Positions 11,613-14,223 of a stretch of DNA of 64,000 nucleotides are shown one piece after another. The DNA lies in contig DATGJN010000103.1 in assembly GCA_035295165.1 (NCBI GenBank), forward strand, positions 62,001 through 126,000, written 5' to 3'. The notes under the pieces are model-generated. The model saw only the letters and a program-made list of their open reading frames with translations, made no database searches and was not told the origin of the DNA. This stretch comes from a bacterium (GTDB taxonomy: Bacteria > Sysuimicrobiota > Sysuimicrobiia > Sysuimicrobiales > Segetimicrobiaceae). The position numbers and the translations under genes were made by a program. The stretch's first letter is position 1. Every line of letters begins with the position of its first letter.

Positions 11613-11942
11613 CTAGCTGAGCGCCGCGTCGATGCGCTTCTTGAGGGCCTCTTTCGGCATGTAGCCGACGATCCGCTCCACGAGTTCACCCGACCGGAAG
11701 ATGCCGAGCGTTGGGATGCTCATGATGCTGTACCGCGCCGCGATCCCGCTGTTCTCGTCCACGTCGAGCTTCATCACGCGCAGCTTGCCTTCATATTCTC
11801 CCGCAATTTCCTCGACGATCGGGGCGATCATCTTGCATGGGCCACACCACGTGGCCCAAAAATCCACCAGCACCGGCGTGCCCGCCTTCAGCACATCGGT
11901 GTCGAACGTCTTCTCCGTCACGCTCGCAGGCTTCGTTGCCAT
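11613..11942 (-). CDS. trxA: Thioredoxin
   Basis: This 109-residue thioredoxin reduces protein disulfides in the cytoplasm. The active site WCGPC lies in DFWATWCGPCKMIAPI near residues 31-35, and the conserved cis-proline is in SIMSIPTLGIF near 75. No signal peptide is present. The ATG at 11942 is preceded by AAGGAGAGGAG. The gene appears to be monocistronic, ending at a clear terminator. An internal position after the cis-Pro keeps the usual G-E-L-V-E-R-I-V-G-Y end. Confidence 0.97.
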   Translation of the reverse strand: MATKPASVTEKTFDTDVLKAGTPVLVDFWATWCGPCKMIAPIVEEIAGEYEGKLRVMKLDVDENSGIAARYSIMSIPTLGIFRSGELVERIVGYMPKEALKKRIDAALS

Positions 11943-12024
11943 ACCCTGGCTCCTCTCCTTATGGGGTCACCCGATTCCTCACAACCCATCCCGGCCTCCA
12001 TTTATTCCCTTTTCCCGACGCCTG

Positions 12025-12582
12025 TCACCACCGCGGCCAACGTGCCATCGCGACCAGCAGGAGGACGCTCATTCCCCCGGCGCCGAGGCATCCCATCCGG
12101 CCCGATCGCCCGGCGGCGGTGCCCTTCAGCGGGGCGTCCAGGCGGGAGCCTCTGGCCCCCGACCGGAGGGAGAGCCTCGTGGCAGTCTTGAACTCCCGCA
12201 CCGCGTCGCCGACGCGGCCCTGCTGCTTGTACACGATCCCGAGATTCTGGTGGGCGATCCAGTAGTCCGGATCCATCGCGATCGCTTTTTGATAGCACGC
12301 CACCGCTTCGTCCAGCCGGCCGCGCTCGCGATAGACGTTCCCGAGGTTGCTGTGCGCTGGCGCGTATCGCGGGTCGAGTTGGACCGCCTTTGAGAACGAC
12401 GCGTGCGCGTCATCCCACTGGCGCTTGTGGACGTAGGCGACCCCCAGTTTGCTGTGGGCAAGCGCCGACGACGGCGCGGCAGCGATGGCTTTCTGAAATG
12501 CCGCAACCGCACCGTCCCAATCCTCGACGGCCAGCCGCTCTTCTCCCTCAGCCAGAAACGGAGACGGACCTTGAGCGCTCAT
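12025..12582 (-). CDS. TPR-repeat protein with C-terminal membrane segment
   Basis: The 185-residue protein contains about four tetratricopeptide repeats between residues 10 and 140, with typical A-x-x-x-Y/L-G-x-x-Y and YxxALxLDP-like blocks (KAVQLDPRYAPAHSNLGNVY, KAIAMDPDYWIAHQNLG). The last 20 residues are hydrophobic and may form a single tail anchor. TPRs mediate protein-protein contacts; the partner is unknown. I use the ATG at 12582; a TTG nine bases upstream is possible. It lies 82 bases upstream of trxA on the same strand. Confidence 0.85.
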   Translation of the reverse strand: MSAQGPSPFLAEGEERLAVEDWDGAVAAFQKAIAAAPSSALAHSKLGVAYVHKRQWDDAHASFSKAVQLDPRYAPAHSNLGNVYRERGRLDEAVACYQKAIAMDPDYWIAHQNLGIVYKQQGRVGDAVREFKTATRLSLRSGARGSRLDAPLKGTAAGRSGRMGCLGAGGMSVLLLVAMARWPRW

Positions 12583-12728
12583 CTTCTCCAACGGTCACGC
12601 CGCCCGGGCGGATGCGGCGGTCACGGGACGCCCGGCGCGGCGTTGCTGCTAGGGTCTTCGCAAAGGGATTGTGGGGTTCCTTCGGTATCTCGGGGCGCGG
12701 AACGCGTGCGGGATGCGCGCCCGACGTA

Positions 12729-13217
12729 CTATGCCGTCGAGCGTTCGAGAGGCGGCTGCGCCGCCCACAGGGGGAGATCTTCGACGGTGTCGTCCGTATC
12801 GTGTTCTCTCGCGGCCGCGGCCACGGCGGCCGCCTCATGCCCCCATGCGGTCGCGTCCGCTTTGACCCGGGCCGCGCGATATGCGTGCAGCAACGCGCGG
12901 ATCTCCAGATACGGACCGACGTACGCCGGGTCGACGTCGCGGGTCCCGTTGATCTGCTCAACCACTTCGGGCGTGTCGCTGTGCACGACGACCCATCGCG
13001 ATCCGAGGCGCCGGGAGTTCCACAGGGCGTAGAGGATGCCGCGGAACGCGGCAAGATCCCGGTTCTGAACCCCCTGGAGCGTGCGTCCGATGCGGCGCAG
13101 AATGCGCCCCTGCGCATCCACGAAGACCACGCCCATGCCGGCCCGGCCGTCGACTGGCGGTGCGGCGGCAACGTACACGTGGATCGTCTTTGTCGCGCTC
13201 ACCCTACCCGTCGTCAT
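12729..13217 (-). CDS. RNase H-fold protein with degenerate catalytic residues
   Basis: The 162-residue protein reads like an RNase HI/RVT_3 domain: a first strand (IHVYVAAAPP), the RDLAAFRGILYALW helix where active enzymes have an E, a strand ending in VVVHSDTPEVVEQING, and WGHEAAAVAAAA in place of the usual H-N-x-x-A-D. The first-strand aspartate and the helix glutamate appear replaced, so nuclease activity is doubtful. The ATG at 13217 overlaps the stop of the upstream small gene (ATGA), which puts it in the lexA operon. A role in SOS or nucleic-acid binding is inference from context. Confidence 0.75.
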   Translation of the reverse strand: MTTGRVSATKTIHVYVAAAPPVDGRAGMGVVFVDAQGRILRRIGRTLQGVQNRDLAAFRGILYALWNSRRLGSRWVVVHSDTPEVVEQINGTRDVDPAYVGPYLEIRALLHAYRAARVKADATAWGHEAAAVAAAAREHDTDDTVEDLPLWAAQPPLERSTA

Positions 13218-13504
13218 CGCTGCACCATCCGTTCGAGCACGGCCGTTGCAATGACCAGTCCCGCCAGGAGCAGCAGCTTGACCCGTACGAGCCTGCGATC
13301 GTCCGCGAAGAGGCGGCACAGTTGCGCGACCGTCATCCGCGGCGCGGCCTCCGCCGGCACCCACGTCGCGTGGTGGAGTGTGGGATACGCGTGCCGCCGC
13401 GGCGACGATAGCGGTGCTCGCCTTACCGTTCGCCGCACGACCCGCCACCCCTGTGTCGACTCGGGGGCGGTCATGCCCATTCGGCGCGCCGTGCTTACGA
13501 CCAT
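13214..13504 (-). CDS. Small hypothetical protein with C-terminal membrane helix, in lexA operon
   Basis: I do not recognise this 96-residue protein. Its N-terminal two thirds are basic and rich in Arg and Pro; residues about 72-90 (VRVKLLLLAGLVIATAVLE) form one likely membrane helix, followed by a short basic end. The ATG at 13504 lies inside the last codons of lexA and its stop overlaps the start of the RNase H-like gene, so both ends are translationally coupled. In Firmicutes the gene beside lexA is often a small membrane division inhibitor (YneA/SosA); this protein has a different layout, and the parallel is inference only. Confidence 0.55.
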   Translation of the reverse strand: MVVSTARRMGMTAPESTQGWRVVRRTVRRAPLSSPRRHAYPTLHHATWVPAEAAPRMTVAQLCRLFADDRRLVRVKLLLLAGLVIATAVLERMVQR

Positions 13505-14130
13505 CCGTGCACCCCCTGGTAGGCTCGGATGAGCCCGATGACCCGCCCGACGATTTGAAATTCCTCGCGGATGGGTCGGTACGCAGGGTTTGCGGGCATG
13601 AGCAGGGGCCGGCCTTCATCGAGTGCCAGCGTCTTCACCGTTGCTTCGTCCCCCAGGAGAGCGACCACGATCTCTCCCGGTGCGGCGACCGACTGTTTCC
13701 TGACGATGACCAGGTCGCCGGAGATGATCCCGGCCCCATTCATGCTATCCCCACGTACGCGCAGCAAGAAACATCCTCGAGCGTCACCGAGGAGGTGACG
13801 CGGTACTTCGACGTGCTCTTCGACATGTTCGTCGGCCAGAATTGGCGCCCCGGCCGACACGCGGCCGATGAGCGGGAGGGGGACGCTGTCACCGGTCTGG
13901 ATGAGTGCCTTGTCGACTACTTCCAGGGCGCGCATCCGCTCGCCGTGGCGCCTGATACACCCCTTCTGTTCAAGGGCCACGAGGTGTTGGTGGACGGTGG
14001 ACGGTGACTTCAGGCCGAGCGCATCACCGATCTCCCGAACAGACGGCGCATATCCCTTGTCCTGGACCTCTCTGACGAGGTAGTCCAGGATCTGCTGCTG
14101 CCGATCCGTGAGGCCCTGCCTTCTTCCCAT
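13495..14130 (-). CDS. lexA: SOS repressor LexA
   Basis: LexA represses SOS genes and self-cleaves when RecA is activated. The 211-residue protein has the winged helix (LTDRQQQILDYLVREV, YAPSVREIGDALGL, SPSTVHQHL) and the S24 protease domain. The scissile Ala-Gly is in RVSAGAPIL, the catalytic Ser in GDSMNGAGI and the Lys in ATVKTLAL. I chose the ATG at 14130 because GGGAGGT lies 8 bases upstream; an in-frame start further out (14169) overlaps the promoter -10. The gene leads an operon with two small overlapping genes and is preceded by two SOS boxes. Confidence 0.97.
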   Translation of the reverse strand: MGRRQGLTDRQQQILDYLVREVQDKGYAPSVREIGDALGLKSPSTVHQHLVALEQKGCIRRHGERMRALEVVDKALIQTGDSVPLPLIGRVSAGAPILADEHVEEHVEVPRHLLGDARGCFLLRVRGDSMNGAGIISGDLVIVRKQSVAAPGEIVVALLGDEATVKTLALDEGRPLLMPANPAYRPIREEFQIVGRVIGLIRAYQGVHGWS

Positions 14131-14167
14131 GGATCCTGACCTCCCCCGCTGGTCCCTCGTCAATGTC

Positions 14168-14197
14168 ATTATAGCGAACTAATGTACGGTATATCAA
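14168..14197 (-). promoter_or_regulatory. lexA promoter
   Basis: On the minus strand TTGATA (14192-14197) and a consensus TATAAT (14168-14173) are 18 bases apart. The first SOS box lies entirely within the spacer, so LexA binding would block RNA polymerase. Confidence 0.75.
14175..14188. promoter_or_regulatory. SOS box 1 (LexA operator)
   Basis: The site reads CGAACTAATGTACG, an imperfect palindrome of the Gram-positive LexA box type (CGAAC-N4-GTTCG). It sits between the -35 and -10 of lexA. Confidence 0.75.
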
Positions 14198-14209
14198 TGT
14201 CAGATAATA

Positions 14210-14223
14210 CGAACGTATGTACG
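14210..14223. promoter_or_regulatory. SOS box 2 (LexA operator)
   Basis: The site reads CGAACGTATGTACG and shares CGAAC-N4-GTACG with box 1. It is 35 bp upstream, about three and a third helical turns. It could help repress lexA or control a divergent transcript towards 14447. Confidence 0.7.

Follow-up and report, generated by a model that had tools for sequence, protein, structure and literature searches.

The single-helix SOS division inhibitors of Gram-positive bacteria commonly adjoin lexA and are divergent in sequence (PMC6851548). YneA, ChiZ (Rv2719c) and SosA have an N-terminal transmembrane helix followed by an extracellular C-terminal part, with LysM in YneA and ChiZ, and the activity of YneA requires its extracellular LysM domain (PMC13396833). 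The minimal forms of damage-induced, single-helix membrane proteins are SidA of Caulobacter, which has 29 aa and acts on FtsW (PMC4211646), and DidA, with 71 aa. As for the replication machinery, ImuB is an SOS-controlled protein with a catalytically dead enzyme fold, and its beta-clamp motif has been proven in mycobacteria and corresponds to 352-QLPLWG-357 (PMC10421592).

The locus described here lies in a stretch of 64,000 nucleotides (hereafter, the window) of a bacterial genome of 4.8 Mb in 121 contigs (G000), and it places two further genes directly behind lexA: one encodes a small membrane protein, TM, and the other a protein with an RNase H fold, RH. TM is comparable to SosA, YneA, DivS and ChiZ: it is small, with one predicted helix, LexA-controlled by its promoter boxes, adjacent to lexA, and divergent in sequence between clades. 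There are some differences: the helix of TM is C-terminal, and its gene is co-directional with lexA and translationally coupled to it, whereas sosA is divergent from lexA.

The lexA operon and its SOS boxes

On the minus strand of the window, lexA, the TM gene and the RH gene overlap end to end (Table 1): lexA (ending at 13495) and TM share 10 nt at the TM ATG, and TM and RH share 4 nt where the TM stop meets the RH ATG, which matches exactly the overlaps at 13495-13504 and 13214-13217 given in the original prediction. The TPR protein gene follows RH after a gap of about 140 bp and is treated here as a neighbor by synteny rather than as a member of the SOS unit; together with a thioredoxin gene (11613-12591 for the two) it trails RH, and the order RH, TPR, thioredoxin is kept in a distant family (L047) though lexA and TM are gone.

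Table 1. Features of the lexA operon, with positions in the window
Feature	Position	Strand	Basis or remark
SOS box 1, CGTACATACGTTCG	14210-14223 (G000:C103:76210-76223)	-	pattern match in genome
SOS box 2, CGTACATTAGTTCG	14175-14188	-	between -35 and -10 hexamers
Putative sigma-70-type promoter, TTGATA-18-TATAAT	14168-14197	-	11 of 12 positions agree; expected number 0.5 per 3 kb
lexA, 211 aa from likely ATG 14130; open frame to 14169	13495-14130	-	Pfam, TIGR00498
TM gene, 96-aa predicted C-tail-anchored single-helix membrane protein	13214-13504	-	conservation, predicted helix
RH gene, 162-aa RNase HI-fold protein, C-terminal tail presumably disordered	12730-13217	-	PF13456, 3hst, AF2 model
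TPR protein gene, C-terminal hydrophobic segment	12025-12591	-	syntenic neighbor of RH

Regarding LexA, a profile search identified the DNA-binding domain (Pfam LexA_DNA_bind, 5.6e-25) and the autopeptidase domain (Peptidase_S24, 3.6e-31), along with TIGR00498 (3.2e-61); the Ala-Gly of the cleavage site, the Ser (GDSM) and the Lys (ATVKTL) are all present. The longest frame begins at ATG 14169, but this codon overlaps the -10 hexamer, so that ATG 14130, preceded by a GGGGGAGG-like ribosome site, is most likely the start. The search for lexA covered 61 genomes; a second paralogue (G000:C22:20567-21196, L038), 47% identical, occurs in most genomes of the phylum and is not accompanied by a TM gene.

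The pattern CGWACAWNNGTTCG has five matches in the whole source genome versus none for the reversed control; two of them are the boxes before lexA, and the others are located at imuA-imuB-dnaE2 (L039), L041 and L042. The dinB promoter (L040) carries CGAACGTGCGTTCG, and the recA promoter has CGAACATATGTTTG between its TTGACA and TACAGT hexamers. Across the phylum, at least one upstream box with zero mismatch is present at 32 of 35 lexA loci, and at the other three with a single mismatch, while the coding control windows gave no SOS boxes; most orthologues have paired boxes, with a spacing mostly of 33-36 bp. At the level of sequence, SOS control of lexA, TM and RH is well supported, through a box common to the recA, dinB and imuA-imuB-dnaE2 promoters, and this agrees with the SOS operon proposed originally.

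A conserved membrane protein behind lexA

The phylum sample consisted of 43 genomes from one order and seven families, and 36 of them have a lexA of the window type (lexA1). TM is found behind this lexA in all 36 genomes, spanning six families, and overlaps its end in 35 (by 4-10 nt); in the exception, G017, at a contig edge, TM begins 84 nt past the apparent lexA stop. RH follows TM at 30 of the 36 lexA loci, so that both genes are conserved beside lexA; the six loci devoid of RH belong to family f6, and RH is therefore not obligatory for TM.

The TM orthologues have 42 to 118 aa and a common C-terminal core, corresponding to residues 66-91 in the window protein, FADDRRLVRVKLLLLAGLVIATAVLE. 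Alignment of 30 members gave the consensus [FL]-x-D-D-R-x-[LA]-[VI]-x-x-K-[LIV]-x-[LM]-[LM]-x(8)-A-x-x-[LA]-E, in which D69 and K76 never vary and D68 and E91 hardly ever do. For the core, most pairs of sufficient divergence give a dN/dS of about 0.2-0.4, pointing to purifying selection; constraint is looser in the N-terminal part, which is rich in arginine (about 0.3-0.95). The original prediction had allowed for a chance ORF, to be recognized by a lack of conservation or of homologues beside lexA; phylum-wide conservation and purifying selection rule this out and, on these grounds, the TM frame is a real gene.

As for its anatomy, 30 of 30 members have one hydrophobic segment, at the C-terminus, and K/R residues number 3-21 on its N-terminal side and 0-2 on its C-terminal side; AlphaFold predicts a single continuous helix for residues 59-95 of the window protein. 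By the positive-inside rule, TM would be a C-tail anchor with its N-terminus in, leaving only about 2-7 residues outside the membrane; the conserved charged residues flank the helix, with DDR and K before it and E after it. This agrees with the single C-terminal membrane helix of the original prediction, and the seat of TM beside lexA matches that of the Gram-positive SOS division inhibitors. However, TM does not belong to the YneA/ChiZ family, typified by an N-terminal helix and LysM: its helix is at the other end, no LysM match was found, and the lack of an extracellular LysM domain rules out membership. TM resembles SidA and DidA in being a minimal single-helix protein, the shortest TM having 42 aa, and the literature found on these two proteins describes neither a lexA operon nor an RNase H partner.

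Searches with TM gave no match in Pfam (30 members queried), PDB, PHROGs or PADLOC, and in NCBIfam only a TraX score far below cutoff. Nine lexA loci outside the phylum have unrelated neighbors and no such TM gene; among 386 genomes (343 outside the phylum), the single outside match was weak and had an internal stop, in a search that scored 14 candidates per genome and that a distant relative could escape. For RH, Pfam, NCBIfam, PHROGs, PADLOC and PDB returned the generic RNase H fold only, and scores outside the phylum were at the ordinary RNase H level, with few candidates per genome scored. A search of genome contigs with a single protein as the query produced only three matches, in Centralia MAGs labeled Bacillota, and no publication on the two genes was found in a literature search that covered mainly openly available papers. 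TM and RH appear to be new families, neither being recognized in the 343 genomes outside the phylum.

An RNase H fold with a conserved tail

RH matches Pfam RVT_3 (PF13456, 1.8e-9) and PDB 3hst (E 3e-14), and its AF2 model (pLDDT 85) is similar by Foldseek to 4e19 and 3hst (TM-score 0.73-0.74); profile and predicted structure together establish the RNase H fold proposed for the third protein of the operon. The resemblance to the RNase HI domain of Rv2228c (3hst) and to Halobacterium RNase H1 (4e19) extends over about 130 residues, with 23-24% identity. Unlike these enzymes, RH is devoid of at least three of the four RNase H (DEDD) carboxylates, because the first Asp, the Glu and the last Asp are replaced in the aligned family, and the third Asp (TDS-type) is kept in some members only; the NN.AE hybrid-binding motif is gone as well, and a tail with LPL[WF], presumably disordered, is added. 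The loss of the catalytic residues rules out an active RNase H and, with the NN.AE motif missing as well, RH is unlikely to function as an enzyme on nucleic acids. The RNase H-like fold suggested originally stands, and the role of nucleic-acid-binding partner suggested with it is revised. The protein is nevertheless under strong constraint, as indicated by dN/dS values between 0.08 and 0.24, apart from a single, very close pair at 0.37.

The motif L-P-L-[WF] near the C-terminus occurs in 25 of 25 aligned members and in 27 of the 30 lexA-linked RH; in the window protein it reads EDLPLWAAQ, in a region of low AF2 confidence, and the C-termini of RH are often acidic. This tail would be a protein-binding-like feature. 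In family f3 it becomes QLPLW (L046), identical to the clamp motif of ImuB, while elsewhere the first position is D, S, V, F, M, P, T or G. The first Gln is important for clamp binding, and DnaE3 polymerases vary at this position too (PMC12309361). Compared with the clamp pentapeptide QxxLF or QL[SD]LF, RH has the Gln in f3 only; given this variation among families, clamp binding is taken as a lead and not as membership of the class.

RH is like ImuB in being SOS-controlled, in having a catalytically dead enzyme fold and in its short linear motif containing LPLW; the differences are that the ImuB fold is of the Y-family, that the genome encodes a separate ImuB, and that the two proteins do not co-occur. 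ImuB was detected in 16 of the 43 genomes, and in most f2 genomes and in genus g2 RH is present and ImuB absent, so that RH as an obligate part of the ImuB mutasome is unsupported.

TM-RH pairs away from lexA occur at seven loci: G000:C62, G006:C26, G011:C137, and four genomes of genus g17 in f4, where the pair is kept behind a threonine-dehydratase-like gene and the window-type lexA is absent. These pairs suggest that TM and RH probably work together and that, besides their link to lexA, the two genes are linked with one another. Three of them, at L050 (G000:C62), L051 (G006:C26, beside phoU/pst) and L071 (G011:C137), have no detectable SOS box; since pairs survive where boxes are absent, the job of TM and RH would not be exclusively SOS. 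Regarding the tail, it is lost in most RH copies away from lexA (g17, G000:C62, G004, G007), with LPLW becoming L[ED]LV-like in g17; it is kept in G006 and G011. TM occurs without RH at one locus in addition to the six lexA loci of f6, and in G015, which has neither TM nor the window-type lexA, RH persists and leads into the TPR and thioredoxin genes that also come after it in the window.

A possible SOS checkpoint and its alternatives

The reading that we prefer, at a probability of roughly 45%, is that of an SOS checkpoint in which TM is a lexA-linked, single-helix effector of the functional class of SidA, YneA and SosA, and RH is a non-catalytic adaptor. It draws on what the sequences display, namely the operon and its SOS boxes, conservation and purifying selection, the RH fold with its catalytic loss, the tail motif and the TM-RH pairing. 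LexA would repress its own operon, and its cleavage, triggered by RecA-ssDNA, would yield TM and RH from the same transcript by coupled translation. TM would then insert as a C-tail anchor, with its N-terminus in, and would use the helix and the juxtamembrane W-x2-[FL]-x-DDR...K motif to engage a membrane partner, most likely in the divisome (FtsW/FtsI-type), delaying division in the manner of SidA, YneA and SosA. RH, with its nuclease-dead RNase HI fold, would act as the cytoplasmic adaptor of TM, and its tail may bind a further protein, the beta clamp being one candidate.

TM fits the functional class of SOS division inhibitors because its position, regulation and anatomy match, and by analogy this role is plausible; for RH, the simplest view is that of an adaptor with no catalytic role, produced together with TM. 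Some points speak against the checkpoint: YneA needs its LysM domain, yet TM would have almost no extracellular part; RH is missing at the six f6 loci; pairs occur without SOS boxes; and the clamp Gln is not conserved. If the reading holds, TM would be a candidate family of SOS division inhibitors for a whole phylum where no described one was found, with forms small enough, down to 42 aa, for peptide-scale genetics; as for the dead RNase H partner, none is described in the SOS literature found. An extended version, in which the tail-anchored microprotein stops division and the dead RNase H protein senses or holds the replication clamp, as a phylum-specific two-component checkpoint, would link the state of the replisome to septation, and we regard it as improbable.

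The roles may also be inverted, with RH as the main effector, an SOS-induced clamp-binding adaptor that alters the traffic of the replisome or of translesion polymerases, and TM merely its membrane tether. The conserved tail, its identity with the ImuB motif in f3, its loss in most copies away from lexA and the persistence of RH without TM in G015 all agree with this proposal, which we nonetheless hold to be unlikely: position 1 has no conserved Gln, the distribution of RH is not that of ImuB, and TM does without RH at six lexA loci.

That TM and RH are housekeeping genes, placed on the lexA transcript by chance and only incidentally induced, would explain the pairs beside phoU/pst in G006 and behind the threonine-dehydratase-like gene in g17, where no SOS box was detected; it is improbable in view of the linkage to the window-type lexA in 36 of 36 genomes, with overlap in 35 and across six families, and of the loss of TM in the genomes outside g17 that lack this lexA (G015, G024, G027). 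Finally, a TisB-like toxin or dormancy factor that depolarizes the membrane under SOS control and is restrained by RH would suit the small, hydrophobic TM and its 4-nt overlap with a cytosolic gene in several lineages, but it is improbable too, because TM occurs without RH at seven loci in all and its conserved charges lie at the ends of the helix and not along one amphipathic face.

Two further genes deserve mention. A perfect SOS box, CGTACATATGTTCG, lies at L041:3665-3678 (G000:C49:108164-108177), upstream of a peroxiredoxin (AhpC/TSA) and a peptidase-like gene, and the peroxiredoxin is possibly an SOS-controlled oxidative-stress gene. The SOS-controlled DnaE2 (L039:4972-8883, G000:C117) contains an intein (PF14890, 9.9e-14) inserted between GEYGFPQ and SHAASFA, and hence it would need protein splicing.
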